Of a stretch of DNA of 64,000 nucleotides, positions 25,231-40,707 are shown in pieces; the stretch's first letter is position 1; each line of letters starts with the position of its first letter. The notes below the pieces were generated by a model that saw nothing but the letters and a program-made list of their open reading frames with translations, did no database searches and was not told the origin of the DNA. This DNA comes from a bacterium (GTDB lineage: Bacteria; UBA8248). A program made the position numbers and the translations under genes. The stretch spans positions 62,001 through 126,000 of the forward strand of contig JAJEJD010000018.1 of assembly GCA_022828125.1 (NCBI GenBank), written 5' to 3'.

Positions 25231-28158
25231 CTAGCTCGGCGATGCGTCGCTTTCGGCCTGTTTGTCCTCGGCCTCTTTTTCGGGCTTCTCGGTTTGAGGC
25301 GCTTCGTTCTTCGCGCTGGACTCGCCGGGCTTGAGGAAATTCGTCTCGATCATCAGGTAATCGCGCATCGCGCGGATTTGGCGGTACGCGTCGCCGCCCA
25401 AGAGTTCCTCGTCGATGGGCTCGCCGTGGCTCTCTAGCGTCGCCTTCCCGATGGTTTTTCCGAGGTCGGCCGGCGAGGAGATGGCCACTTTCTTCTCGTC
25501 GATTTCCGTCACTTTCACGAGATGCGTGGCGCCGCCGACGCGCAGGGTGGCGAATTGCTCTTCCGGCAACTCGACTTCTTTCGTTGCTTCGAGTTCATAG
25601 ATGAACAGGTCGTCTTCTTTTTCGCCCCTGACGCCCTTGACGATTTCAGCCTGAGAGCCCGCTCCCTCGAAGAAGTTCGGCATCTTTGTGCCCGGCTGGA
25701 TTCTGCCCGGATATATCAGCCAGTCGACTACCCAGTCGGGTCGCAGGCGTTCCTTGGCGAACAGCAGGTTCGGCGCTGTCGGGGGTTCCTGTCCCGGGGG
25801 TGGCGGCCATTCGCCATGACAGGCCAGGCATTCAGCCATCGCGAAGAGCTTTTTCCCGGCCTGGAGGTTTTCCGCGCTCACGCTCTTGGCGTCGAAATGG
25901 ATATAAGGGTTCAGTTTCGAATCGAGCGCGGCGAAGTAGTCCACGAGCGCGGCGGCGTCTTCATCGGGCATCTGGAAGCTGGGCATCCGCACCTTGAGCC
26001 AAGGCCTGAGCGTCACGACGTTTCTCAGGAAGCCGAAGAACCAATCGGGCTGCACCTTTCTGCCCTCGCCGTTCAGCAGGGGCGGGCCGTTCGTCTTGTC
26101 CTCATAGCGCCTGAGCAGGTCGCCGCCCCAGTTCTCGATGACGTGGCAGCCGTTGCAGTTGTATTTCTCGATCATCCGGCGTCCGTTTTCGATGCGCCGG
26201 GCGCGGGTGTCGAGCACCTGGTGGACGCTGTGCGGCGCGCCGTGCGGCGTCATGGAGCGCAGCAGGGTCCGTATGGAGGAGACCTCCGGATCGGAGAATT
26301 CGAAGTTCGGCATGAGCAGCGTTTCGCGCTCGGTCTGGTAGAGTTGCGGGTTCTTGAGCTTGCCGAACGTCCACGCCTCCCAGGTGTGGGGCATGTCGAC
26401 CACGTTGCCGAATGAGAGCTCGAAGGGTTTTTTGGCGGCGAAGCGCGTCAGGTCCGGTCCGATCTTGGAGAGCTTCTCGGTGCCGGGGATGACGTGGCAG
26501 CCGAAGCAGCCGCGCGTCGCGACGAGCTTCTTGCCGCGCTCAAAGGAGGCCTCATCGCCGAGTTTCCGGGGTTTGGGCCGTTTTGACTTGGGCGTTAGGC
26601 TGACGAGGTAGGCGGTGACCGCACTCGCTTCCTCATCCGTGAGACGAAGGCTCGGCATTTTGGTGTCGTGCCAGTAAGCCTTCGGGTTCTTGAGCCAGCG
26701 GAACAGCCAGTCGGGCTGGATCTTGGCGCCGATGTTCTGGAGCGCCGGTGCGAAATCGCGGTTCCTGTAAACGATGGGCCTGCCGTTCACGCCTTCGAGC
26801 GGAGAACCGAGATCCAGGTCTTTATCGTTGCGGATGTGGCAACCCAGACAACCGACTTCTTCGAAGATGGATTTTCCCTTTTGAATCTGAGCGGCGTCAT
26901 CGAGATTTGGGAACTCGGCCGGTTCCACCTTGCGCGGGCCCTGCCGCCAGACGTAGGTGGCGATGTCCAGCGCTTCCTGATCGCTGAAGCTGAAATACGG
27001 CATGCGGGTGCGCGGGTTGTAGTCTTTCGGCTTCTTGACCCAGGAGACGAGCCAGGCGGGCGCCACCTTCTCCTGGATTCTCGATAGGTCCGGCCCCACC
27101 TGGCGCAGGCCTTCCGTGCCCGGGAGCGTGTGGCAGCCGTTGCAGCCGAGTTCTCTGGTGAGCGAGATGCCGCGCGAGATTTTAGGCGCCTCGGGGATGT
27201 TGAATATCTCGGTGTGGCAGCTTCTGCATTTGGTTTGCGTTTCGCTGCCGCGGAGAAGGGGGTCTTCCCAGAATTGCACATAACCGTGAGCCGTATTGAG
27301 GCTGGTGACGGCCGTTCCCTGCCCGCCGTGGCAAAGCGTGCAGCCGACCTTGTTGAATTCGTGTGTCGAGAGATAAAGGCGCCTGTTGGGATGCGTGCGG
27401 AACGGCTGGGGCGCATCCTCGAAGCCCGCCCTGTTGATGCCCAGGTGGCACGTCTGGCACCGCTCCACCTTCATCACGGGTTCGTTGAAGTTGTTGCGTT
27501 CATATTCGCGCAGGACGAGCTGGCTGATCTCATAAGGCCGGGCGGCGATGCTCTTCAGCCGCCGCTCCTGGGAGGAAATGTCGCCGGCTACTTTTCGCCT
27601 TGTCGCCTGGAGCGTTTTCAGCTCATTTTCCTTGGCCTCGATCTTCGCCTTTATCGCGTCCCTGTCAGCTTCGGCCTTCGCCGCGACGGGCGTTATCTCA
27701 TCGAGCAGGGCCTTGGCCTCGTCGACTTCGGTTTGCTCGGCTTCTTTGTCATGCCCTTGCCGGATGGCTTCCTGGAGATAGAAGTAGGACTGATCGAAAA
27801 GCGCTTTTCTGAAGCCAAGCTCCTGCACTTTCTCGAAAGCGTCCAACTCGCTTGTCGTGAGTTCTTCTTTGAGTTTTTCGAGCTCTTCGTCGCCCGTGAG
27901 TTTTTGTTCCTGCGCGGCGATTTTCTTGTCGAGTTCGGCAACCGCGGAGCCGGTGGTTTTCTTGAGTCTGGCGAGTTCTTTCTCTACCTGGGCTTTTTCA
28001 TAGGCGTTGAACTGTTTCTGGTATTGCTTCCAGGGTCTGCGCGTGAACGCCTCGTCCCAGACGGTCCAGAACGTCACTGCGACCATGAAGAGTCCCAGGA
28101 TGAAAAACGTGATAGGACTGGTCTTCTCTTCCGGAGGTTTGAAATCTCGACCTTGCAT
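25231..28158 (-). CDS. Membrane-anchored octahaem c-type cytochrome with coiled coil
   Basis: The 975-aa protein has one N-terminal membrane helix (about 15-34) and a long charged coiled coil (about 45-210). Eight CxxCH haem sites follow: CQTCH, CTLCH and CRSCH close together, then CNGCH, CLGCH, CFGCH, CNGCH and CLACH. The last five sit in repeated mono-haem modules with a distal methionine (RMPYF, KMPSL, LMPNF, RMPSF, KMPNF). A C-terminal domain of about 150 residues has no haem. It should sit in the periplasm. It could accept electrons from the b6f-like complex at 17-19 kb, whose operon lacks a cytochrome c. That pairing is inference. Confidence 0.85.
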   Translation of the reverse strand: MQGRDFKPPEEKTSPITFFILGLFMVAVTFWTVWDEAFTRRPWKQYQKQFNAYEKAQVEKELARLKKTTGSAVAELDKKIAAQEQKLTGDEELEKLKEELTTSELDAFEKVQELGFRKALFDQSYFYLQEAIRQGHDKEAEQTEVDEAKALLDEITPVAAKAEADRDAIKAKIEAKENELKTLQATRRKVAGDISSQERRLKSIAARPYEISQLVLREYERNNFNEPVMKVERCQTCHLGINRAGFEDAPQPFRTHPNRRLYLSTHEFNKVGCTLCHGGQGTAVTSLNTAHGYVQFWEDPLLRGSETQTKCRSCHTEIFNIPEAPKISRGISLTRELGCNGCHTLPGTEGLRQVGPDLSRIQEKVAPAWLVSWVKKPKDYNPRTRMPYFSFSDQEALDIATYVWRQGPRKVEPAEFPNLDDAAQIQKGKSIFEEVGCLGCHIRNDKDLDLGSPLEGVNGRPIVYRNRDFAPALQNIGAKIQPDWLFRWLKNPKAYWHDTKMPSLRLTDEEASAVTAYLVSLTPKSKRPKPRKLGDEASFERGKKLVATRGCFGCHVIPGTEKLSKIGPDLTRFAAKKPFELSFGNVVDMPHTWEAWTFGKLKNPQLYQTERETLLMPNFEFSDPEVSSIRTLLRSMTPHGAPHSVHQVLDTRARRIENGRRMIEKYNCNGCHVIENWGGDLLRRYEDKTNGPPLLNGEGRKVQPDWFFGFLRNVVTLRPWLKVRMPSFQMPDEDAAALVDYFAALDSKLNPYIHFDAKSVSAENLQAGKKLFAMAECLACHGEWPPPPGQEPPTAPNLLFAKERLRPDWVVDWLIYPGRIQPGTKMPNFFEGAGSQAEIVKGVRGEKEDDLFIYELEATKEVELPEEQFATLRVGGATHLVKVTEIDEKKVAISSPADLGKTIGKATLESHGEPIDEELLGGDAYRQIRAMRDYLMIETNFLKPGESSAKNEAPQTEKPEKEAEDKQAESDASPS

Positions 28159-28379: not shown

Positions 28380-31300
28380 CTATTCGTTCTGGCTTCTGAT
28401 GATGCCGGCGAGTTGGCCGATGATGGCGATGGAGATGGTCGGGTGCTCGTGGATCAGTTCGAGCAGGGGTTCTTTCTCGATGCCCAGCAAAGAGGTGTCC
28501 TGGCTGGCCCGCGCGCCTGCGCTTCGGCCCTCGTCGCCGAAAAGCGCGATTTCGCCGAACGAGGTCGGGGGGCCGAGCGTGGCCAGGATCCTCGGTTCCT
28601 CGTTCGCCTGGTTGAGGATGATCTCTACCTCCCCGTCCACGATGACGTAGAGGTAATCGCAGGGGTCTCCCTGCTCGAACAAAACCCTTCCCTCCGGTAT
28701 CTGGATTTCCCTGGAAATGTTGCTCAGTATTTTCAACTCGTCCGCGCTCAACGTCTCGAACATGTTGACGCCTTTCAAAAACAGGGCTTTTTCGATGGTC
28801 GAGAGCATGAATTTCTCCTGTCCGTGTAGAATTTCGCCGACCGCGCCGTCACGGGGACGATCCCGGCGCGCCTGCATGCGCACCAGCCGGCTTTCGTCAT
28901 TCTCCATGGTTCTCAAGAACGCCTCAAGTTCGTCTTCGTCTTTCCCGATGATTCTCGTTGCGACGACCGCCGCCTCGCGGACGTAAGCGTCGCCCTCGGA
29001 GGCCCGCGCCTTGAATTGCGCGCGCCATTCGGCGGTCGCCTCATCCGGTTCGCTTTCGAGGTGTTTGCCCGCCGCATCGACGGCGATGGCCCGGAGCCAC
29101 GCGTTTTCAGAATCCATGTAAGTCGTCAGCACCTCGTCAACCGATCCTTCGGGTATCTCCCACAATTTCCTGCCCTCGGAGACCTTATCGGCGGTCGACC
29201 TGCCGAGCAACAAAGGCTCGAGAGCCAGAATCAGGAGTCTCGTATTTCCGGTCGAGGAGAAGTTCGAGAGCGTCTCGATGGCGATGGCTCTCGACGACGA
29301 TCCGCCCCGCGCGAGGGATTCCGACACGGTATCCACCGTCTTCTCGTCTCCAATCACCCCCAGTAATTCCAGCAAAACCAGTTGTCTTTCCGCGACGACG
29401 TCTTCAAGCGCTTTTCTCAGCATCATGAAGGCGGATGCGTTTTCCCGGCGTTCGATGACGTGGAGGTGGTTGATGACGCTGTAGACTTCCCTCAGGTGCT
29501 CCACGGCGAACCCGGAGAGGGAGTCCACGATTTCCTGCGCGCTCATTTCGCGGGAGCCGTTTCCGGCGCTTCTGGACAAGAGCGGGGCGAGGAACGAAAG
29601 CATCCCGGAACCTTCGAGGGAGAGGGTTCCTTTTCGCTTCATGTTCTTGAGCGATTCGACGGCCTCTCGCCTCACCAGGAAATCGACGTCCGAGAGAGCG
29701 GTCAGGGCGCGTTCGAAACTCTCCCGCGAGCCCTTGTTGCCCAATTGCCGGACGCCTCTGCGCCTGATGGCCGCGCTCTCATCCGAGGTGGTCACCCGGA
29801 TGACTTCTCCCATGCTCTCCTCATCGACTCCCTGGTTCATGGCCAGGACTTCTATCGCCTGTAAGGCGGCTTCGCGGACTTTCTCCTCCTCCTGATAGAG
29901 ATAGGGAATCAATCGTTTGATGAAGCGTGGGTTCTGAAGCTCTCCCATGCACCTGAGGGCGCAGACCCTGGCCGCCGCGTCTTCTTCGTTCAGCATCCGG
30001 TGCAGGGTTTGCAGGCCGTTGGCGAGCCAGAACAGATCGTCCGAGCGGACGAGCAGCTCGACGGCGCGGGCCCGGACTTCGGGGGAGCCGCTCTCCAGAT
30101 TCTCGTGGACCAGCTCCGCCGTCTCCTCCGTCAGTCCGATGCTTTCCGCCGCATCCATGGCGGCGCACTGGAGGAGCGGCTCCTCGCAGGTGAGGTATTC
30201 CTCTACCAGGGGCCGCATTTTCTCGCCCTCTTCGGCTCCGGGAACCTTGGCGAGAATTTTCAGCAACTCGGCCGCTGCTCCTCCTTTTCGCCGGGGGATT
30301 TCTTCGAGAATGATCCCGAAAATTTCGCTTCTGCCGCTTTCCGCCATCATCTGCGCCGTGAAGACGCAAAGATCGTCGTCCCCCTCACGGATGTTTTTCC
30401 TGAGTATCGCCATGCTCTCGTCGTCAACCGGGCCGAACCCCTCCTGGGCGTAGCGGAACAGCCCCAGGTTCCTCTCCTCGAGCATCCGGCGCAGGGCGGC
30501 GCCGTATTCGTGCCGCACGAAGAAGCCGACGGCCAGATAGGCGAACGCGATGAACAAGGAGATGAGCGCCAACTGGCCTGCGCTCAAGGGGAAAAGGGCG
30601 AGACCGGTGGGCTTGATGATGAGCAGGGCGACGCCGCTGACGATGCTGGCCACGGCGACCACCTGGCCCGCGACGAACGCGCCGACGCGCGCGCGGATCG
30701 ATGGGGAGACGGCGTTATAGAGCAGGGCGTTGATGGCGTTTCGAATCGATTCCTGGAGGTTCTTGTTGTTGAAGCGCAAGAAGACGGCGGAATAGAAGCC
30801 GGGCGAAATCGCCATACCGGCGAGGCCGATGATGGTCGTGAGCGGGTAGAGGAGGTTCGCCGTTCCCAGGCCGAGCCGCTTGATGATGCGCGGGGTGATG
30901 AACGTCTGGACGAGCAGGGAGAAGGCGCTCCCGATGGCGGTGAAATACCCGAGGAAAGAGGCGAGTTGCGCGCGGTCGGGGAAGACTTCGCGGAATACGA
31001 GGCTGTACTGGAAATCCTGAAAACTCCTGAGAATTACCACGATGAAGCTGAAAAGCGCGAACGCGCAGACGTATCTGTTCGTCCGCATGAGAGCGAGATT
31101 GCCGCCCTTTGAGGCCGTCTTCTTCGTCTTGCGCTTTTTGGGACCCATATCGTCGATCAGGTGGTCTTTGAGCCGCCATTCGACGTATTGCACCACTCCG
31201 ATACTGACGACCACGGCTCCTATCCACACGTAGAGCAGGTTCGAGACGCTCCCGAGGACGGGGATGAGCAGCGGTATGGACAGGCCGCCGACAATGCCGC

Positions 31301-31787
31301 CGTAGCGGCCCCCGGTCAGGATGATCGGAACCAGGCGCTTGGACTGCAAAACGTCCAGGTACTGGCCGTAGAGGGCGCGGAAATTGTTCGGCAGCATGTT
31401 CGTGAACATGACGAACAGCGTATGGAGAAGCGGAAATGCGATTGGCATCGCGTAGGCGCGGAAATCCGCGAAGATGAGCAGCTTGATGCCGAAGATGAGC
31501 GCGATGAAAAAAAACAGGACCGTCTTGAACATCACTGGAATCGAGAGCTTTTCGGTCAGCGAGGAGTAGAAGGTGCTGATAAGGATGATCACCAGGGCGT
31601 TGAATATGTACATGTACGGCAGAAAACCCGGGCCGACCTCTGAGAGAAACAACGCCTCGGAAACGGTTATCCCGATGGAGAATTGTATTCCGATCAGGAA
31701 ATAGAAAAAAAAGAACACCGAGAAGACGAGCAACTCCTCTTCCTGGATGTTGAATACTTTTTTGAGGAGTTTCGCCATGTCGGTCAC
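28380..31787 (-). CDS. NTT-type (ATP/ADP translocase-like) membrane protein fused to HEAT repeats and a cyclic-nucleotide-binding domain
   Basis: Residues about 15-430 form some 12 membrane helices resembling the Npt1/Npt2 nucleotide transporter family. NNFRALYGQYLDVLQSKRLVPI and GGRYGGIVGGL are in the conserved cytoplasmic region. About 450-1000 is a run of HEAT-like helical repeats (SGSPEVRARAVELLVRSDD, EEKVREAALQAIEVLA). The last 130 residues are a cNMP-binding beta barrel (LFEQGDPCDYLYVIVDGEVEI and SFGEIALFGDEGRS). Start is GTG 31787 or ATG 31778; neither has a clear ribosome site. Such fusions are known outside pathogens with unknown function and could be gated nucleotide-related transporters or sensors. 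Confidence 0.82.
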   Translation of the reverse strand: MTDMAKLLKKVFNIQEEELLVFSVFFFFYFLIGIQFSIGITVSEALFLSEVGPGFLPYMYIFNALVIILISTFYSSLTEKLSIPVMFKTVLFFFIALIFGIKLLIFADFRAYAMPIAFPLLHTLFVMFTNMLPNNFRALYGQYLDVLQSKRLVPIILTGGRYGGIVGGLSIPLLIPVLGSVSNLLYVWIGAVVVSIGVVQYVEWRLKDHLIDDMGPKKRKTKKTASKGGNLALMRTNRYVCAFALFSFIVVILRSFQDFQYSLVFREVFPDRAQLASFLGYFTAIGSAFSLLVQTFITPRIIKRLGLGTANLLYPLTTIIGLAGMAISPGFYSAVFLRFNNKNLQESIRNAINALLYNAVSPSIRARVGAFVAGQVVAVASIVSGVALLIIKPTGLALFPLSAGQLALISLFIAFAYLAVGFFVRHEYGAALRRMLEERNLGLFRYAQEGFGPVDDESMAILRKNIREGDDDLCVFTAQMMAESGRSEIFGIILEEIPRRKGGAAAELLKILAKVPGAEEGEKMRPLVEEYLTCEEPLLQCAAMDAAESIGLTEETAELVHENLESGSPEVRARAVELLVRSDDLFWLANGLQTLHRMLNEEDAAARVCALRCMGELQNPRFIKRLIPYLYQEEEKVREAALQAIEVLAMNQGVDEESMGEVIRVTTSDESAAIRRRGVRQLGNKGSRESFERALTALSDVDFLVRREAVESLKNMKRKGTLSLEGSGMLSFLAPLLSRSAGNGSREMSAQEIVDSLSGFAVEHLREVYSVINHLHVIERRENASAFMMLRKALEDVVAERQLVLLELLGVIGDEKTVDTVSESLARGGSSSRAIAIETLSNFSSTGNTRLLILALEPLLLGRSTADKVSEGRKLWEIPEGSVDEVLTTYMDSENAWLRAIAVDAAGKHLESEPDEATAEWRAQFKARASEGDAYVREAAVVATRIIGKDEDELEAFLRTMENDESRLVRMQARRDRPRDGAVGEILHGQEKFMLSTIEKALFLKGVNMFETLSADELKILSNISREIQIPEGRVLFEQGDPCDYLYVIVDGEVEIILNQANEEPRILATLGPPTSFGEIALFGDEGRSAGARASQDTSLLGIEKEPLLELIHEHPTISIAIIGQLAGIIRSQNE

Positions 31788-31876
31788 TTATCAAGCGGTG
31801 GATGAGGATCCTTCGCGTGAATCCCGCCCTCTGGGATTTCCGGAACGCAGGCGATGATGAACCGGTTGATTCTAGC

Positions 31877-33523
31877 TTAGACTTTTTGAGATTTCCATGA
31901 GTAGTAAGACAAGGCGTCCTCCGTCCACTGCGCGCAGTTCCGGCTGAATCTTTCCCAGTGGCTGTTGGCGCATTGGGCGCGGACGGGGTCGGCGTTGCCC
32001 TCGGCAATGAGGCCGTTGAGCGGCGAGAGGTCGAATTCGGCTCGAACGGGCACTCTGCCGCGCTCCTCGGGGTCGAGGAGCGACAAAAAGCGCGCGAACG
32101 CGTCAAAGGCACCGCGAATCTTCTCGCACAGGCGCTCCGCGCCTCCCGCATACGCGACCAGGGGCGGAACCAAAGGCGCGTAGCGGTTCAGTTCCATTCC
32201 GCCTTCGGTGCGGTTCGTGATGCTGTCCACGCCGACGACCCCGACTGAATCATCCGAGAATTCCACCGGAAAGAGTCTGCCGTAGAGCGTTTCCACGATC
32301 ATTCCCTCACGGCTGAGCCTCAGATGAACGCGGACGCTGAACAGGCCGAAATCGATCCAGTCGCATATGAGCGGCAGGTAGCGCGCGTCGAACACCTGTT
32401 CGTAGTTCTCGATGGCGCTCGCCAGGAGGCGAATCGAATCCTCACGCGTGCGGGACGCTTCGCGCAGTTCGGATTCGAGTCTGGGCGCGCAGTTTTTGAG
32501 TATTTGTCCCAAAACGTTCGGGGAAGCGCCGTTTCCCACCCTTCGGGTCTTGACGTAGGCTTTCGCGGTCGCCGGGCTGGCCTGGAAGCGATGAACGAGC
32601 CAGTCCATCGCATGGAGGTGATCGTGGTTTTCCGCGTCGAGAGACAAGGGGAGGGGAATCGCATGGTCCGCCGCGACGCCGAGTCTGCTCAAATCGGGAA
32701 GCCCGAACCCGTTGGGGTAGACGTCCAGCCGAAAGCATCCGCGTCCCCCGCCGCCTTCCTGCGGTTTGACGAAGAAAGTCCCCGTCCCCCGTTTTCGCGA
32801 CAGGGCGGAGGCCCTGTCCAGAATGGCGGCCGCGGCCTCCACAGGTTTTCCCCCGTTCAGTTCCACCACCTCATAGGCGGCCGTCAGGCGACGCCCGGGA
32901 GCGCCCGCCTCGGGGTTTTTCGCATCCGTCCCGTTTCCGTTCAGGAGTTCGTACGTGGTTTTCTTGTTGGAGAGCGGCCCGCCGGGGGCGGTGAGAGAAC
33001 CCGGCGCCACGACGATTCCCCTGGCTTCCAGAACCTTGGCGAGGGCGGCGTCGTAGAGGCTTCTCTGGGCGGTCTGACTGATGACGAGCAGCTCTTTCGG
33101 CGCTCTGGCGGCGCGGGCCAGAAGTTCCTCCCGCCGGTTCAGGACCCTGACGGGGATGGACAACCCGAGTTGCTTCAGGTGCGCGCGCATCACCCGCGCC
33201 GTTTCCATGGTGAGGGGGAGCCGGCTCGGGGAGCCGTCCAGCAAAAGAATTTCCCCCGGACGCCGAATGGGCGGCGCGTCTTTCAGGATGCGCAGGTCTG
33301 CAAAACGGGGCTCGCGCGACGCCCAGCGGTTGAGGCTTTCGATCAACGTTTCGTTCAGATCACCGTCAGGCGAATCGAACTCTTGGCTCACGCGGTACAG
33401 ATCCCAGACGCCGCCGCTCGCATCGGGCGTGAGGTTGTAGAGAGAAGGTTCCCGCGCGATGCGGGGGTGGTTTGATGGTTTGCGCGAGGTCAAGGCTTCG
33501 CTCTCGATGCCTAAAACACCCAC
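31877..33523 (-). CDS. ATP-grasp-like ligase, third gene of an uncharacterised operon
   Basis: The 548-aa protein has an N-terminal Rossmann-like part (ELLVISQTAQRSLYDAALAK). It then has LSNKKTTYELLNGNG and the nucleotide-binding strand-loop GTFFVKPQEGGGGRGCFRL near residue 255, which is the ATP-grasp P-loop-like lysine and glycine loop. Further on, GLFSVRVHLRLSREG and RAEFDLSPLNG look like the C-terminal metal-binding part. I do not recognise a named family. It starts inside the end of the DUF1611-like gene (13-base overlap), so translation is coupled. It probably joins a carboxylate to an amine or thiol using ATP. Confidence 0.65.
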   Translation of the reverse strand: MGVLGIESEALTSRKPSNHPRIAREPSLYNLTPDASGGVWDLYRVSQEFDSPDGDLNETLIESLNRWASREPRFADLRILKDAPPIRRPGEILLLDGSPSRLPLTMETARVMRAHLKQLGLSIPVRVLNRREELLARAARAPKELLVISQTAQRSLYDAALAKVLEARGIVVAPGSLTAPGGPLSNKKTTYELLNGNGTDAKNPEAGAPGRRLTAAYEVVELNGGKPVEAAAAILDRASALSRKRGTGTFFVKPQEGGGGRGCFRLDVYPNGFGLPDLSRLGVAADHAIPLPLSLDAENHDHLHAMDWLVHRFQASPATAKAYVKTRRVGNGASPNVLGQILKNCAPRLESELREASRTREDSIRLLASAIENYEQVFDARYLPLICDWIDFGLFSVRVHLRLSREGMIVETLYGRLFPVEFSDDSVGVVGVDSITNRTEGGMELNRYAPLVPPLVAYAGGAERLCEKIRGAFDAFARFLSLLDPEERGRVPVRAEFDLSPLNGLIAEGNADPVRAQCANSHWERFSRNCAQWTEDALSYYSWKSQKV

Positions 33524-34680
33524 TTGCGCTGGCGCATGAAGTGTTTGATCACCCAGTCCGCAATGGCGCCGCCCACGGCATTGTCGGTCGCAAGGGAGGA
33601 GGGGTTCGGGGCGATGCAGCTCAAGGCGCGTATCCCCGTCATGCGGTACGCCTCCTCGCGCGCGTGCGCTTCGTTGGCGAGCCTTCCGGAAATGAGCATA
33701 TTTTCCTCCTCCACCCCCAGGTGGCTTCGGATCCAGTGGACGATGAGCGTTGATTCCAGCGTATCACATGCGCAGACGATCAACCCTCTGCGCGAGAGCC
33801 AGTCCTTGACCCAGGGGTCGCTCGCCACGTGGAGGCTGGCGTCCGAGGAGGGAGAATCCGCCAGTTCCGCGATGACGATTTCCGCCTTCGCGCATGCGTG
33901 GCGAAGCAGGTTTTGGGCGCATCGCCTGACCTTGTGCCGGGAGACGCCGGACGTGGAGGCAAGACCCGCATCGACGAAATCCCAGCCGAGTCTCGCGGAG
34001 TCGAAAAACCCGAGCGGCCTTCCGTAGTTCACCTGCATGAGATCCCGCATTCGGCCGGTTCCGGTGAGTTTCACGTACGAGACGTGGATGCCCGAGGAGT
34101 GGAGAGCGGAGGCGAGCGAAGACGCGCAGGTCGTTTTGCCCACGTCCATGTCGGAGCCGGTGACCAGGATGATGGGAGCGCAGGGAACCCCCTCCTCATC
34201 CACGGGGCAGCGGGTATCGGGAATGACGGGGAGATGAGAAAGCAGAGCGGGTTCGCCCCGATGCGCGACGCCCCCTTTCACCTCTATTTTCGCGCACGGC
34301 GTTTCGGGGTTCGTACGAATCCCGCAGACGCCGCCGACGTTCAACAGGTCGAGCACGTCTCCGGGCGCTGCGGGAGATTCCGGCTCACGGCCCGATACGC
34401 TGCGGTTCGCATACCGCCCGCCGATCGCAACGACCACGTTCATCTTTTCGCGCAATTTTACTTCGCTCGTCATCCAGGCATCTTGCGTCCCCTGGAGGAC
34501 TTCGAGCGTTTCCAGGCGATCGACGGGAGCGTTTCCGGGCGCTGCGACGACTTCGCCCAGCGCGATTCCGTTCGAGGGAACGGGCCTGGGGTCGGCCGTG
34601 AAATCCGAATCGAACGCGTACGGGATTTCAGGCGACAGGAACAATCCTCGGGCGGTGGATGCGAAAAAATCCGGTTTCAA
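33511..34680 (-). CDS. DUF1611-like P-loop NTPase
   Basis: The 389-aa protein has an N-terminal alpha/beta domain and a C-terminal P-loop domain with Walker A VTGSDMDVGKTTCASSLASAL near residue 175. IVIAELADSPSSD follows at the switch position, like MobB and dethiobiotin synthetases. The whole resembles DUF1611, a family that includes DgcN of a described D-glutamate pathway. It lies between two ATP-grasp genes, 13 bases after the first and overlapping the second. The reaction is unknown; transfer or activation of an acyl or amino-acid group would suit the neighbours. Confidence 0.7.
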   Translation of the reverse strand: MKPDFFASTARGLFLSPEIPYAFDSDFTADPRPVPSNGIALGEVVAAPGNAPVDRLETLEVLQGTQDAWMTSEVKLREKMNVVVAIGGRYANRSVSGREPESPAAPGDVLDLLNVGGVCGIRTNPETPCAKIEVKGGVAHRGEPALLSHLPVIPDTRCPVDEEGVPCAPIILVTGSDMDVGKTTCASSLASALHSSGIHVSYVKLTGTGRMRDLMQVNYGRPLGFFDSARLGWDFVDAGLASTSGVSRHKVRRCAQNLLRHACAKAEIVIAELADSPSSDASLHVASDPWVKDWLSRRGLIVCACDTLESTLIVHWIRSHLGVEEENMLISGRLANEAHAREEAYRMTGIRALSCIAPNPSSLATDNAVGGAIADWVIKHFMRQRKWVF

Positions 34681-34693
34681 TTTTCACCATGTC

Positions 34694-36160
34694 CTAAGCG
34701 GGAGAAAGAGCGAGACGGCGCGTGAATGTATCTATCATTTCCCGGGCGGCGGGGGATATCTGTTCTTCTCCCTCTTCGTAGATGGATGAAATGCCTTCGA
34801 GCTTACAGAACGCTCCCCTTGGCTCTACTATGGTGCCTTTCGCCGGGGGAGAGCAAGTGACGAGCACCTCGTCCTGGTCTTGAACGTCGCTCAGGCGATA
34901 ACCCCGCCGGATGAATTCGGGCCTCCCGTTTCGGACGGTGTAGATCCCGGGTTCCAGCGAACGGCCGGTCCGCATTCTCGAAGGGCTCGTGTTTCGAATC
35001 AAAAGCTGAAAACCGGATAAGTCCTTTCGGCCGAGTCCGGCGAGTAAATCCCGGTGCGCGTCCAGAGCGGCGCCCGGCTGCAGGAATTCGGCCAGATGCC
35101 AGTAGGTGGTGGTGGGGGCGCTGTCGTGTATTTCCTCGAGCTCGGTCATCAGTTGCGTGGTTCCCAGAACGCGCGGGTTGAGTTCGAGGGCGTAGGGTTC
35201 GTCCCGATGGACGATGAAATCGACGCCGTATATGCCCCGATAGCCCGCACAGGCTATCCACTCTCCGATTTTCAGGGTGAATTCCTCGATTTTTCGCCGG
35301 CTCTTCCCGGAAACCAGCCGATACGCCGCATAGTCGCTTCCCGCGTAATCGAAGCGGTGCATGGAGCAGCCGGGAATTCCCGTGAACATCACCGAAGGGT
35401 GGGACATCCAGGGCTTCCCGTCATAAATCAGCCCCGCCGTTCCCACAGCGGGGCCGCTCAGAAACGCGCTCACGATCACCGGCGCATCGGCCCCCAGCTT
35501 TTCGATGAGCTCGCTCCGCTTGTTCGCGAGCGCCTCGGGTGAGTCGATGAAGTGCGTCTGGTTGCCCGAGGAGCCGATTCGCTCCGAAATGATCATGACC
35601 GGCCCGAATTGCTCGAGTTGTTTTGGTCCGAGTTCGCCCAACGCCACAACGTCGCCCGGGGGAACGCCGAACCCCGCTTCGACCGCCTGATGCCGGAAAG
35701 CTATCTTGTCGTCGAATCTGGTCTTGATTTCCACCGGGTTCGCCAGGATGCGGAGCCTGCCGTCGGCTTCTTCTGCGAGTTTGCCGAGGAACTCCGTGGA
35801 TCGGTAGGGGATGACGTATCGGGGAGCGTCCCCTTGCGAGAGAAATTCCCGAATCTGGGAGCCCAGGATTCCTTCGTAGGCCTCTACGAGTGATGAATGC
35901 GTCCATACGATTCGCCTGTTTCCTCCGCGCTCCACGGCGAAATAGCGCAGGCGCCTGTCCCATTCGGGCCCGTCGAGCCCGTAGTCACAAGCGATGAGGA
36001 AATCGAGGGGGACGATGTTTTCCATCGTGATCGAATCGACCGCGCGCAGTCCCTGAAAGCCGAACGTCGATCCGTCCGGAACGCTGGAGGCCAGCGCTTC
36101 GTTGAAATCGTCTTTTGCATGGCGAGACAAGGGAAAGCATCCTTCATCGAGAATCAGCAT
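34694..36160 (-). CDS. ATP-grasp domain protein, first gene of the ATP-grasp/DUF1611 operon
   Basis: The 488-aa protein has the three ATP-grasp parts: ETKTRF-like IKTRFDDKIAFRHQAVEAGFG (substrate entry and N-domain), FGPVMIISERIGSSGNQTHFI (lysine loop region), and YGVDFIVHRDEPYALELNPRVLGTTQL with the metal-binding E-x-N. The last pattern is that of carbamoyl-phosphate-synthase-like ligases, and the C-terminal 100 residues look like a separate small beta domain. It is the promoter-proximal gene and has its own -35/-10 upstream. The substrate is unknown. Confidence 0.8.
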   Translation of the reverse strand: MLILDEGCFPLSRHAKDDFNEALASSVPDGSTFGFQGLRAVDSITMENIVPLDFLIACDYGLDGPEWDRRLRYFAVERGGNRRIVWTHSSLVEAYEGILGSQIREFLSQGDAPRYVIPYRSTEFLGKLAEEADGRLRILANPVEIKTRFDDKIAFRHQAVEAGFGVPPGDVVALGELGPKQLEQFGPVMIISERIGSSGNQTHFIDSPEALANKRSELIEKLGADAPVIVSAFLSGPAVGTAGLIYDGKPWMSHPSVMFTGIPGCSMHRFDYAGSDYAAYRLVSGKSRRKIEEFTLKIGEWIACAGYRGIYGVDFIVHRDEPYALELNPRVLGTTQLMTELEEIHDSAPTTTYWHLAEFLQPGAALDAHRDLLAGLGRKDLSGFQLLIRNTSPSRMRTGRSLEPGIYTVRNGRPEFIRRGYRLSDVQDQDEVLVTCSPPAKGTIVEPRGAFCKLEGISSIYEEGEEQISPAAREMIDTFTRRLALSPA

Positions 36161-36195
36161 AAGTGCCCAGGCGGTCCCAAAACCAGAAACAGGCG

Positions 36196-36225
36196 ATTCT
36201 AATTCGATAGCAGCGCGGATATCAA
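36196..36225 (-). promoter_or_regulatory. Predicted promoter of the ATP-grasp operon
   Basis: On the minus strand: TTGATA, an 18-base spacer and TAGAAT, about 40 bases before the start codon at 36160. The divergent transporter operon starts about 150 bases away. Confidence 0.5.
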
Positions 36226-36349
36226 CATATTACGGCGTTTCGGGAATGGTGATTCCACTCTTCGGGGCTTCTGCAACGTGCAGCGCGCTATGCTAGGATA
36301 CGGGGCGTTTCAGCCCCAAAATGACACACTCATGCGTGAGAGTGAATGT

Positions 36350-37282
36350 ATGTCCGTAGAGAGAAACATGCCCGAATCGGCGTTGAATACCGATGATTAC
36401 CCGATGATGTCGGATTTGGAGCTCAGGTGGGAGAAATTCCGACGGAGCATGATGCGCGCCAAACCGGCGATGCTCGGGGGCGTTTTTCTCATCCTGCTGG
36501 TGGTCGTTTCTCTTTCCGCTCCTCTCATCGCGCCGCAAGACCCGGGCATGGTGGACGTCAACCTGCGCCTGAAGCCTCCCGTCTGGGTGGAGGGAGGAAG
36601 CGCAAGCTACTTTCTGGGAACTGACGCGCTGGGCCGGGATGTTTTGAGCCGGCTCATGTACGGGGGCCGCGTCTCCATTATGGTGGGCTTGAGTTCGGTG
36701 GTGATTTCGGGGGTCATCGGCATCGTCCTGGGCCTCGTATCGGGCTTTTTCGGTGGGAAAATCGACGATCTCATCAGCGGGTTTTCCGAAATTCAACTGG
36801 CGTTTCCCTTCATTCTCCTTGCCATCACGATCATGGCGGTCGTCGGACCGGGGCTGCTCAACATCATCGTGGTGCTGGGGATCAGCCGGTGGGTAGCCTA
36901 CGGCCGCGTGGTGCGAGGGCAGGTCATCTCCATTCGAGAGCGCGAATTCGTGGAAGCCACACACGCCCTGGGCTATCCCCTGTACCGTATCTTGTTCATG
37001 CAGATTCTGCCCAACACCCTCTCGCCTCTCATCGTTATTGCCACCTTCGCCGTGGCGGGAAACATCATTTCCGAGTCCTCGCTCAGTTTCCTGGGACTCG
37101 GCGTTCCGCCCTCGGTCGTCACCTGGGGGGGCATGTTGTCCGAAGGACGCGAATATCTGCGCGGCGCGTGGTGGATGGCGACTTTTCCGGGTCTCGCCAT
37201 CATGGCGACGGTATTGAGCATCAACCTCATCGGCGACTGGCTGCGGGACTACATGGACCCCCGCCTCGGCGATGACATGTAG
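36350..37282 (+). CDS. Dipeptide/oligopeptide-type ABC transporter permease (DppC-like)
   Basis: The protein has a membrane helix near residue 45 (LGGVFLILLVVVSLSAPLIA) followed by DPLGTD-like FLGTDALGRDVLSRLMYGGRVSI. The inner-membrane permease signature EAA loop reads EFVEATHALGYPLYRILFMQILPN, and LGLGVPPSVVTWGGML is typical of DppC/OppC. Starts at 36350 and 36368 are possible, with a still earlier frame open; 36350 is a compromise. The operon has the binding protein and DppB-like permease but no ATPase. The ATPases (DppD/F) must be elsewhere. Confidence 0.9.
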   Translation: MSVERNMPESALNTDDYPMMSDLELRWEKFRRSMMRAKPAMLGGVFLILLVVVSLSAPLIAPQDPGMVDVNLRLKPPVWVEGGSASYFLGTDALGRDVLSRLMYGGRVSIMVGLSSVVISGVIGIVLGLVSGFFGGKIDDLISGFSEIQLAFPFILLAITIMAVVGPGLLNIIVVLGISRWVAYGRVVRGQVISIREREFVEATHALGYPLYRILFMQILPNTLSPLIVIATFAVAGNIISESSLSFLGLGVPPSVVTWGGMLSEGREYLRGAWWMATFPGLAIMATVLSINLIGDWLRDYMDPRLGDDM

Positions 37283-37303: not shown

Positions 37304-38851
37304 ATGAAAAGGGCCTTGTTATGCGGATGTTGTCTCCTGTTCGTGGCGCTCGCCGCCTGCGGCCGCGAAGCGAAACAGGGGCCCTTCACGGTTCTCCTCT
37401 CGGTGGAGGCCAATACGCTCGATCCCCATTTCGCGACGGCCACCATCGAGTGGAGCATACTGATGAACATGTTCGACCCGCTCATCGAGCGTCGCGGCGA
37501 TATGACGCTGGGGCCCGCTCTGGCCGAACGCTGGGAGGTGGACGAGACAAAAAAGGTCTGGACGTTTCATCTTCGCAAAGGAGTGAAGTTTCATAACGGC
37601 GAGCCGTTCGATGCTGAATCCGTGCGCTATACGTTCGAGCGGATGCGGGACAGGAAGCTCAAGCCCCGCATCACGGTTTACCGGAGGATTTTCCTGGACA
37701 GAATAGAAAAAGTGGATTCCCATACCGTGAAGATTCATACGAAGCGCCCGGTTGCCACCCTGCCTGTGTGGATGGTGAACGCGTTCATGCTGCCGCCGAA
37801 GTATTATTCGTCGACCCCGCCCAAGGAGTTGTTGAAGAAACCCGTGGGTACCGGGCCGTACAAGCTGGTGAAATGGGTCAAGGACGACCACGTCGAGATG
37901 AAGGCCAACGAGGGCTGGTGGCGGGGTGAGCCCGCCATAAGAAAAGTGATATGGCGGCCGGTGGCAGAGGCTTCGGCCCGCATAGGGGAGTTGGAGACGG
38001 GCGGGGCCGACGTCATCATGAACATCTCGCCCGATCAGTCGAAATCCATTATCAAGAGCAAAGAGGGCCTCCAGTTCAAGGGGGCCCGGGGAGGGCGCAG
38101 GATTTATCTGGGGGTTCGCACGGATCACGGGGTGCTCGGCGATGTTCGTGTTCGCCGGGCGTTGAACCACGCGATTGATTTCGAGGCTATCGTCAAGAAC
38201 GTTTTTCTGGGCCACGGCTCACGCATGCGAAGCATCGTGAACGCCCCGAACGCCGACCCGGGGATGAAGGCGTACGCCTACGACCCCGGGCGGGCCAAAA
38301 CGCTCCTCGCCGAGGCCGGCCTCAAGGACACGAATGGGGACGGTGTATTGGAAGCGGGTGGAAAGCCGTTTGAGGTGAAACTTGAAGTACCCGCTTCCAG
38401 ATATTTGAAAGGAAAGGAGATGGCGGAATTTTTGGCGGCCTATTTCCGCGCCGTGGGCGTCCACGTGGAGGTGATTCCCCTGGAGTGGTCCGTTTTCCTC
38501 GCCCGAAGAAGAAAAAAGACGCTGGCGCCCTTGTATTTTCACGGGTTCAGCTCCGCCTTCAACGAAGAACTCGACCTGGGCGTATTGAGGCCCAACCTGT
38601 TTGCGAACCTCACCGCCTGGAGGAACCGCGGGTTTATTGAAAATTACAGGAGGCTCGGCCAGACGTTCGACCCCGCCGAGCGCAGGCGGATCAGCTACCG
38701 GATGCAGCGCATCGTTCGTGAGGAAAGCCCATGGGTGTTTCTCTGGAACCAATATGATTTTTTCGGCTTGAGCGCGAGGACGCAGTGGACGCCGAGGCCG
38801 GATGAGAGAATCTACCTGCCCGCGATTCGCTTGAAAGAGGCGAAAGAATAG
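37304..38851 (+). CDS. Peptide/nickel-type ABC transporter substrate-binding lipoprotein (SBP_bac_5)
   Basis: The 515-aa protein starts with a lipoprotein signal (lipobox LAAC, C20). It has the family-5 signature: LDPHFATATIEWSILMNMFDPL, then RKGVKFHNGEPFDAESVRYTFERM and, later, DVRVRRALNHAIDFEAIVKNV. It would bind a peptide-like or other oligomeric solute at the membrane outer face. AAGGGAATT is upstream of the ATG. It lies 21 bases after the DppC-like gene and 3 bases before the DppB-like gene. The ligand cannot be read from sequence. Confidence 0.92.
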   Translation: MKRALLCGCCLLFVALAACGREAKQGPFTVLLSVEANTLDPHFATATIEWSILMNMFDPLIERRGDMTLGPALAERWEVDETKKVWTFHLRKGVKFHNGEPFDAESVRYTFERMRDRKLKPRITVYRRIFLDRIEKVDSHTVKIHTKRPVATLPVWMVNAFMLPPKYYSSTPPKELLKKPVGTGPYKLVKWVKDDHVEMKANEGWWRGEPAIRKVIWRPVAEASARIGELETGGADVIMNISPDQSKSIIKSKEGLQFKGARGGRRIYLGVRTDHGVLGDVRVRRALNHAIDFEAIVKNVFLGHGSRMRSIVNAPNADPGMKAYAYDPGRAKTLLAEAGLKDTNGDGVLEAGGKPFEVKLEVPASRYLKGKEMAEFLAAYFRAVGVHVEVIPLEWSVFLARRRKKTLAPLYFHGFSSAFNEELDLGVLRPNLFANLTAWRNRGFIENYRRLGQTFDPAERRRISYRMQRIVREESPWVFLWNQYDFFGLSARTQWTPRPDERIYLPAIRLKEAKE

Positions 38852-38854
38852 ACG

Positions 38855-39772
38855 ATGGGCGCCTATCTTTTCAGACGATTTCTTCGGGCCGTCGTGGTCG
38901 TGGTCGGCGTGAGCTTCATCTCGTTCGCCGTCCTGTTCCTGTCGGGCGACCCGACCGACACCATGGTGGGCGAGGACTGGACGGTCGAGGAGGTCCAGAA
39001 ACTCAAAGAAGACCTGGGTCTGGACAAGCCCTGGTTCGTCCAGTACGCGCTCTACGTGAGCCGGGCCGTGCAGGGTGATTTCGGAGAAAGCCTGCGCTAC
39101 CGCCAGCCCGCATTCGAAATCATCATGGAGCGTCTGCCGGCGACGCTGGAACTCGCCCTCGTGGCGCTGGTTCTCTCGATTATCCTGGCGTTTCCTGTAG
39201 GGGTCATCAGCGCGACGCAGCGCGGTTCTCCGTATGATCACGGGGGGATGCTATTCGCGCTCCTGGGGCAATCCATGCCCGTTTTCTGGCTCGGCCTGAT
39301 GCTCATCCTCGTCTTCGGGGTGAGTCTGCGGTGGCTGCCCGTCAGCGGGAGAAGCGGCTGGGAGCATCTGGTGCTGCCCGCCATCGCGCTTTCCACCTAT
39401 TCGATCGCGAGAAACGCGCGGGTGGTTCGAAGCTCCATGCTCGAAGTTCTGCGCCATGAGTATGTGAAGACCGCCCGCGCGAAGGGACTCTCCGAGTGGA
39501 TCGTCATCAACCTGCACGTGCTCAGAAACTCCATGATTCCTGTGATCACCATCATCGGCCTGGAATTCGGGCATCTGCTGGGGGGGGCCGTGATCGTCGA
39601 GACGATTTTCTCCTGGCCGGGGGTGGGAAGGCTCCTGATCCAGGCCGTCTACGCCAAGGATTTCCCCCTGGTGCAGGCCTCGGTGACCATCACCGCCCTG
39701 ATATTCGTATCTTTGAACCTCATCGTTGACTTGATGTATTCCGTCCTCGACCCAAGGGTGAGACTCCATTGA
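38855..39772 (+). CDS. Dipeptide/oligopeptide-type ABC transporter permease (DppB-like)
   Basis: The 305-aa membrane protein has the DppB N-terminus (MGAYLFRRFLRAVVVVVGVSFISFAVLFL), the LGLDKPWFVQYALYV loop, the permease signature EYVKTARAKGLSEWIVINLHVLRNSMIPV and the C-terminal VETIFSWPGVGRLL block. It partners the DppC-like protein as the membrane channel. Its stop overlaps the next start as TTGA, so the downstream amidohydrolase is part of the same transcript. Confidence 0.93.
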   Translation: MGAYLFRRFLRAVVVVVGVSFISFAVLFLSGDPTDTMVGEDWTVEEVQKLKEDLGLDKPWFVQYALYVSRAVQGDFGESLRYRQPAFEIIMERLPATLELALVALVLSIILAFPVGVISATQRGSPYDHGGMLFALLGQSMPVFWLGLMLILVFGVSLRWLPVSGRSGWEHLVLPAIALSTYSIARNARVVRSSMLEVLRHEYVKTARAKGLSEWIVINLHVLRNSMIPVITIIGLEFGHLLGGAVIVETIFSWPGVGRLLIQAVYAKDFPLVQASVTITALIFVSLNLIVDLMYSVLDPRVRLH

Positions 39773-40707
39773 GCAGAACTGCGTATTTCTGGACGCCGGA
39801 ATCTCTCATGCACGACAACGGCAGGCATGTGGAGAACGCCGAGCGCGCCAGACGCCTGACGCCCGAGAGAATTCTCCCCCAAGTGCCGTCGCTCGGACAC
39901 ATGGAGATTAAGTCTCACGACGCTAAGGAGTGGGTTCTGAGGGTGCATGAGGAGTCGCACCATCGCTTCGTGCGAGAGGCGTGCGCAGGGGGCAGGTGTA
40001 TTCTCGATGGCGGGGACACGCTGGCGGGCCCCGGAAGCTATGAGGCCGCTCTCGCCGCTGTCGATGCGGCCCTGAGCGCGGCGGACGCCGTCGTGAGCGG
40101 AGAAGCCGACAACGCCTTTTGCGCCGCGAGGCCGCCGGGCCATCACGCCTTGCCCCATCAATCCATGGGTTTCTGCCTGTTCGCCACCGCCTCCATCCTG
40201 GTCCGGTATCTGCAGGAAAAACAAGGCCTCCGGAGAATCGCCGTGGTGGATTGGGACGTGCATCACGGAAACGGCACGCAGGATATCTTCTGGCGCGATC
40301 CGGACGTGTTTTTCGTCTCCCTGCATCAGCATCCCCATTACCCGGGTACGGGGCTTGCAGGCGAGACGGGAGAAGGGGCCGGAGAAGGCAAGACGCTCAA
40401 CATTCCCGTCCCGGCGGGAACCCCCGAAGAGGAATATCTGGCGAAATTTGAGGAAAACGTCATCCCCGCCGTCGAAGCGCACGGACCCGAGGCGATCGTC
40501 GTATCGGCGGGGTTCGACGCGCACCGAGACGATCCGCTGGGGGGGCTGATGATCACGGAAGCCGGTTTCGCCCGCCTGACCGGTTGGGTGAAGGCGCTTG
40601 CCGATAACCTCTGCGAGGGGCGGCTTATCTGTCTTCTTGAAGGCGGATACAATCTGGACGCTCTCGAGCGCTCCGTCGTCGCGCACTTGCGAGAACTCTC
40701 GGCGTAA
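39769..40707 (+). CDS. Histone-deacetylase-family amidohydrolase (acetylpolyamine amidohydrolase-like)
   Basis: The 312-aa zinc amidohydrolase starts at TTG 39769, overlapping the permease stop. It has the HDAC landmarks RPPGHHALPHQSMGFCLF (two histidines and general base), VVDWDVHHGNGTQDIF (zinc ligands D and H), HQHPHYPGTG, and VSAGFDAHRDDPLGG (zinc D). The bacterial family removes acyl groups from acetylated polyamines or other N-acyl amines. Coupling to a peptide-type transporter suggests that it deacylates an imported N-acylated compound; this is inference. Confidence 0.92.
   Translation: MSRTAYFWTPESLMHDNGRHVENAERARRLTPERILPQVPSLGHMEIKSHDAKEWVLRVHEESHHRFVREACAGGRCILDGGDTLAGPGSYEAALAAVDAALSAADAVVSGEADNAFCAARPPGHHALPHQSMGFCLFATASILVRYLQEKQGLRRIAVVDWDVHHGNGTQDIFWRDPDVFFVSLHQHPHYPGTGLAGETGEGAGEGKTLNIPVPAGTPEEEYLAKFEENVIPAVEAHGPEAIVVSAGFDAHRDDPLGGLMITEAGFARLTGWVKALADNLCEGRLICLLEGGYNLDALERSVVAHLRELSA

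Follow-up and report, generated by a model that had tools for sequence, protein, structure and literature searches.

We describe a group of three closely spaced genes on the minus strand, here called A, B and C (together the trio), in a stretch of 64,000 nucleotides, hereafter the window, taken from a bacterium of the GTDB lineage UBA8248 (GenBank assembly GCA_022828125.1, contig JAJEJD010000018.1, positions 62,001 to 126,000). The trio lies beside a large membrane protein with HEAT repeats and a cyclic nucleotide monophosphate (cNMP)-binding domain, and beside divergent genes for parts of a peptide/nickel-class ATP-binding cassette (ABC) importer (Table 1). An initial annotation had read the trio as a compact operon of two ATP-grasp ligases and a DUF1611-like P-loop protein that forms a small biosynthetic pathway. 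The placement of the three open reading frames (ORFs of 488, 389 and 548 amino acids, aa) and the 13-base gap between A and B were borne out. The 13-base overlap assigned to B and C was not: in a comparison with five congeners the GTG at 33523, where the ORF of C opens, is not conserved as a start, and a TTG at 33493, 30 bases downstream, is present in six of six congeneric genomes. Since all six share this TTG, C probably starts there at a distance of 17 bases from B, and the overlap is probably a start-codon artefact.

The single promoter proposed for the trio was recovered by a motif scan, with 10 of 12 matches to the consensus hexamers. The hexamers are identical in six congeneric genomes, within an intergenic region that otherwise drifts, and for this reason the promoter is taken to be more than a chance match. 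That A, B and C are real genes follows from the excess of third-position substitutions between congeners (differences at codon positions 1/2/3 of 56/48/139 for A, 15/23/100 for B and 60/41/155 for C) and, for C, from identity that is kept across genera (54-61% in other genera). An Rfam search of the window returned no match.

The trio is inherited as a unit. Across a sample of 18 genomes of one family in the host's phylum-level lineage, A, B and C each occur in the same 14 and are absent from the same four, and the order A-B-C is constant wherever contigs allow, down to about 50% identity. The co-occurrence check suggested in the initial annotation thus found no scattering within the lineage, and the broad idea of a small biosynthetic pathway has held up. 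The surroundings are syntenic too, with the HEAT/cNMP gene lying downstream of C in every trio-bearing genome whose contig extends that far, and with the divergent OppC, family 5 solute-binding protein (SBP5) and OppB genes on the other side, followed by a histone-deacetylase-fold protein. In G011, a genome from another genus, all seven genes HEAT/cNMP-C-B-A and OppC-SBP5-OppB are absent at the site, while a TetR gene, the deacetylase and a multihaem-type cytochrome are kept, with 205 bp between the last two. In G017 the same stretch is deleted so that the last ~300 residues of the HEAT/cNMP protein adjoin the last ~30 of OppB. SBP5 orthologues are absent from G011, G012 and G016, and the G017 copy is frameshifted and lies on another contig; this split orthologue may have decayed once the trio was lost, or the frameshift may be a sequencing error. 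Because the block is missing as a unit in G011 and deleted as a unit in G017 with its flanks retained, we define the unit as these seven genes, without the deacetylase. The initial annotation was right that the transporter genes and a deacylase stand next to the trio; the deacetylase is rejected as a pathway member, since it is retained in both of these genomes that lack the trio. An unrooted tree of three flanking genes places G011 as sister to g3+g6, which does not settle whether the block was gained or lost.

The genomes with the trio all belong to one small family-level group, so that A, B and C might be three unrelated housekeeping ligases held together merely by synteny in a small lineage. 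The syntenic flanks would agree with this. We regard such a loose neighbourhood as quite improbable, given the tight spacing, the one conserved promoter and the behaviour of the block as a unit in G011 (absent, flanks kept) and in G017 (deleted). Comparable associations also arise independently elsewhere, where B-like genes accompany two ATP-grasps and A-like genes accompany SBP5/OppBC transporters (see below).

Protein A belongs to the ATP-grasp superfamily. It scores above the cut-off for PF02655 (ATP-grasp_3; 28.0 bits against 23.2), its profile matches include carbamoyl-phosphate synthetase, pyruvate carboxylase and GARS, and its nucleotide and metal residues are conserved (motifs DDK150-152, GSSGNQTH196-203, GVD312-314 and ALExNPR324-330), with GVDF...ALExNPR and the Gly-rich loop maintained across 13 orthologues. 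Sequence comparison indicates a distant relationship to PRK06524 (NCBIfam NF005096; E 6.7e-14, 50.9 bits against an equivalog cut-off of 684) and to BesA. BesA, an L-propargylglycine-L-glutamate ligase, and MfnD, a tyramine-L-glutamate ligase, are ATP-grasp amide ligases whose C-terminal catalytic motif A has in common, but both matches are weak (16 bits in either case, where the cut-offs are 750 for BesA and 400 for MfnD).

The assignment of B stands in part. Its scores against BioD (26.7 bits) and DUF1611 (PF07755; 20.3 bits, cut-off 25) are both below cut-off, but profile comparisons connect most of the protein with sequences annotated as DUF1611. It carries a P-loop (GSDMDVGKTT), a further motif KLTGTGRMRDL and a mostly beta N-terminal domain. 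The P-loop domain of its AlphaFold2 (AF2) model (predicted local distance difference test, pLDDT, 72) matched CTP synthase, HypB and dethiobiotin synthetase in Foldseek. By these comparisons B is best described as a divergent DUF1611/dethiobiotin-synthetase-like P-loop protein, which shares the P-loop GxxMxVGKTT and the surrounding core with DUF1611/DgcN and dethiobiotin synthetase and differs from them in scoring below the Pfam and NCBIfam cut-offs, in lacking a dipeptide epimerase partner and in lying outside a biotin operon. A place for B in the DgcN-DgcA D-glutamate pathway, a link drawn in the initial annotation, was rejected: in addition to the low DUF1611 score, no dipeptide epimerase or racemase was found among the scanned neighbour genes on either side of B, and its nearest outside relatives occur in arginine operons, in a phosphonate-type cluster and beside ABC transporters. 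A role as the host's arginine N-acetylglutamate synthase was likewise rejected, since ArgJ was found in 12 of 12 phylum genomes tested, whether or not they carry the trio; in G017 the gene is divided between two contigs. We found no literature on DUF1611 together with ATP-grasp.

Of the two ATP-grasp ligases originally proposed, A is secure, and C has fold matches from a weak model and no sequence match. Neither C alone, nor a 12-sequence profile, nor the individual members of that profile gave a match in Pfam, NCBIfam or PDB sequences. The AF2 model of C is weak (pLDDT 48.6). The PDB matches listed for it by Foldseek are ATP-grasp enzymes (PurT, PurK, Ddl, biotin carboxylases and a Streptomyces peptide ligase), the best with E 1.1e-4 and prob 1.0 (PurT/PurK) but with a TM score of about 0.2-0.3 on this model. 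Invariant residues in 12 sequences (K187, K253, G257-260, R398, H400, R402, D498, E508, N510 and R515) place lysines, a Gly-rich loop and acidic/Asn candidates for metal ligands in ATP-grasp order, if the roles suggested for them are right. Taken together, the fold matches and the invariant residues suggest that C is probably a new ATP-grasp family, a proposal that stops short of proof. Direct kinship between A and C was rejected (hhalign probability 0.5%). No relatives of C outside the lineage were found in 368 domain-wide genomes, in IMG/VR viral contigs or on plasmids, and a scan of 84,980 species, sensitive to close relatives only, recovered congeners only. The relatives named in the species scan are metagenome-assembled genomes mostly labelled Nitrospinota/Nitrospinae, and from isolate names and general knowledge we take the lineage to be mostly sponge-associated.

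Distant relatives of A were detected in six of the 368 domain-wide genomes, some of them beside AAT or esterase genes. On plasmids of Rhizobium leguminosarum (L150) and Roseobacter ponti (L149), genes for large pyridoxal phosphate (PLP) enzymes come before a PRK06524-type 'biotin carboxylase', the A-like gene, and genes for a C45/AAT amidohydrolase and for an SBP5/OppBC transporter come after it; an amidase or carbon-nitrogen hydrolase is also present. These constitute an undescribed uptake or conversion cluster. A is a distant homologue of this group (profile E 1e-18 to 1e-21, identity 24-25%), and SBP5/OppBC adjoins in both cases, so that the plasmid pairing repeats the arrangement in the window and by analogy serves as an independent parallel. 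The seven-gene block differs in having no C45 peptidase and no ABC ATPases, and the plasmids lack B and C.

This parallel bears on the chief rival to a biosynthetic reading, namely a catabolic or assimilatory module in which the importer brings in an amine or peptide to which A (as a BesA-like gamma-glutamyl-type ligase) and C attach an amino acid as a tag. B would activate or acylate this compound, and its breakdown would be left to other cellular enzymes. Uptake is the established function of SBP5-type binding proteins, the plasmid A-like enzymes have an importer of this type among their neighbours along with a C45/AAT amidohydrolase, an amidase or carbon-nitrogen hydrolase and PLP enzymes, and A itself has a weak match to BesA. 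On the other hand, the block contains no hydrolase, oxidase or aminotransferase (the adjoining deacetylase is outside the unit), and two different ligases plus a P-loop enzyme exceed what tag-and-degrade routes usually need. We therefore consider catabolism unlikely, while giving it more weight than any other rival.

A metallophore module similar to staphylopine (cnt), with a small chelator made by the trio, its export through the membrane protein and return of the metal complex via SBP5/OppBC, seems less probable still. As in cnt/nik systems, an SBP5 and two permeases adjoin biosynthetic-looking genes. The best NCBIfam match of SBP5 is NikA (184.9 bits, cut-off 393), with CntA also matched (142.7 bits, cut-off 800), and OppB is closest to Opp2B/NikB, but none of these scores reaches its curated cut-off, and SBP5 proteins resemble one another in a general way. 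The block has no gene resembling opine dehydrogenase or nicotianamine synthase. Urease, a nickel enzyme, does not track with the module: there is no full match in G001 and G003, which have it, and urease is present in G012, G016 and G017, which do not.

Distant relatives of B were detected in 15 genomes, and B-like proteins carry the annotation DUF1611 or dethiobiotin synthase. Several of the genes belong to arginine operons and stand directly before argC, together with argD, an N-acylornithine-type carbamoyltransferase and argB, and at L127 and L132 the gene sits between argR and argC. ArgJ had no match in the genomes of L127, L132, L128, L131 and L134; the genomes of L129 and L130 (G115 and G381) do have it. 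The arginine-operon genes are candidates for a non-GNAT N-acylglutamate synthase or activating enzyme, beside which ArgA/GNAT-type enzymes may still occur. B-like genes on Paracoccus and Sulfitobacter plasmids adjoin an ABC transporter gene. On a Priestia megaterium plasmid (NZ_CP085446.1, L147), a B-like gene is flanked by two L-amino-acid-ligase-type (LAL-type) ATP-grasps in an apparent phosphonate natural-product cluster. By analogy this cluster, too, is an independent parallel, since it repeats the combination of ligase, B-like protein and ligase.

Table 1. Features of the locus in the window (position 1 is its first letter) and of related loci elsewhere (locus:positions).
Feature	Location	Strand	Description
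975-aa protein, flank	25231..28158	minus	many CxxCH haem-binding motifs; 205 bp from deacetylase gene in G011
HEAT/cNMP membrane protein	28380..31787	minus	1135 aa; HEAT_2 + cNMP_binding domains
Possible own promoter of HEAT/cNMP gene	31869..31897	minus	TGGAAA-17-TAGAAT; overlaps end of C
Gene C	31877..33523	minus	548-aa ORF; orphan family, probable ATP-grasp fold
Gene B	33511..34680	minus	389 aa; DUF1611/BioD-like P-loop protein; TTG start, conserved
Gene A	34694..36160	minus	488 aa; ATP-grasp carboxylate-amine ligase-like; first gene of operon
Promoter of A-B-C operon	36225..36196	minus	TTGATA-N18-TAGAAT, sigma-70-like; motif scan
OppC-type permease, in block	36278..37282	plus	BPD_transp_1 + OppC_N; divergent from trio
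SBP family 5 lipoprotein, in block	37304..38851	plus	peptide/nickel class; SBP_bac_5 290 bits
OppB/NikB-type permease, in block	38855..39772	plus	Opp2B 341.4 bits, cut-off 350
Histone-deacetylase-fold protein, flank	39769..40707	plus	PF00850; outside block
Arginine-operon DUF1611-like P-loop gene	L127:6881-7936		
Arginine-operon DUF1611-like P-loop gene	L132:7333-8385		
Arginine-operon DUF1611-like P-loop gene	L128:6394-7575		
Arginine-operon DUF1611-like P-loop gene	L131:4719-5819		
Arginine-operon DUF1611-like P-loop gene	L134:7061-8134		
Arginine-operon DUF1611-like P-loop genes	L129, L130		
Priestia megaterium plasmid cluster	L147:3805-12493		ornithine carbamoyltransferase (OTCase)-like, two LAL-type ATP-grasps, B-like, split thiamine pyrophosphate (TPP) enzyme, M20 peptidase, luciferase-like monooxygenase (LLM)-class flavin enzyme, phosphoenolpyruvate (PEP) mutase
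Frameshift-split SBP5 orthologue	L051:3348-4831		in G017

The accompanying 1135-aa membrane protein had been missed in the initial annotation. Its N-terminal ~430 aa are hydrophobic, followed by HEAT repeats and a C-terminal CRP-like cNMP-binding domain; the N-terminal part has no Pfam match and by eye is like ATP/ADP-translocase-like transporters. The possible promoter of this gene is conserved in six genomes but lies partly within coding sequence. As for the importer, the solute-binding protein and the two permeases are encoded in the block and no ATPase gene is found there, the rest of the genome not having been searched for one.

We favour, with slightly more confidence than doubt, the reading that the trio is a ribosome-independent and nonribosomal peptide synthetase (NRPS)-independent amide-forming pathway which works with the transporter and the HEAT/cNMP protein. 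The building blocks would be carboxylates or resemble amino acids; A and C would each convert a carboxylate to its acyl phosphate and transfer it to an amine, so that the blocks are joined by amide bonds at the expense of ATP. B may provide a third ATP-dependent step, an activation or an N-acylation, by which one of the blocks is prepared or capped. The importer, with an ATPase from elsewhere, and the HEAT/cNMP protein would move the product or a precursor and may sense it. A small peptide- or amide-like product agrees with a set of two ligases and one P-loop enzyme, and the trio probably makes or modifies such a molecule. Several points weigh against this reading. In sequence, C could not be related to ATP-grasp, and its structure model is of low quality (pLDDT 48.6). 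Synteny covers much of the surroundings throughout the phylum, which makes adjacency alone weak evidence, and the C45 peptidase and amidase give the A-like clusters of Alphaproteobacteria an at least partly catabolic appearance. In addition, the two ligases of the Priestia cluster show no specific kinship with A or C (best E 0.03), and the product cannot be predicted from the genes. If the ligases acted instead on a ribosomal peptide, the block would serve protein or peptide modification, graspetide-like or by side-chain tagging. In graspetides, peptides are the substrates of ATP-grasp ligases (PMC8939145), but no precursor-peptide ORF was seen between the seven genes (gaps of 13, about 17, 89 and 117 bases; an unlinked precursor was not searched for), and we judge this the least probable of the alternatives.

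For the amide-forming pathway the closest biochemical precedent is provided by the phosphonoalamides, for which two ATP-grasp ligases have been established to make tripeptides without an NRPS (PMC11867202). PnaB and PnaC of that pathway and the Priestia cluster resemble the trio in their two ATP-grasp ligases, and the Priestia cluster adds a B-like protein between them. In contrast to phosphonopeptide pathways, the block has no PEP mutase, decarboxylase or aminotransferase, and neither A nor C is of the LAL type (LAL_C2 is absent) or specifically related to the ligases of those pathways; PEP mutase was found neither in the block nor among the scanned neighbour genes, a search that did not extend to the rest of the genome. 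The trio is thus a possible variant of ATP-grasp amide-forming pathways, of which the possible new ATP-grasp family represented by C would be the newest element. A bolder version, in which C founds an ATP-grasp family confined to this lineage, the module synthesizes, transports and senses a peptide- or amide-like metabolite of an undescribed class and the DUF1611-like enzyme is a third amide- or acyl-forming catalyst, is doubtful and is offered tentatively.

If the amide-forming reading is right, the block would be a promoter-bounded module for a small molecule in uncultured sponge bacteria, with a natural empty site as control. For the little-understood DUF1611-like P-loop family, the trio, the ArgJ-less arginine operons and the phosphonate-type cluster would tie it to amide or acyl chemistry in three settings, and because these settings are separate, the reaction of the family becomes testable.

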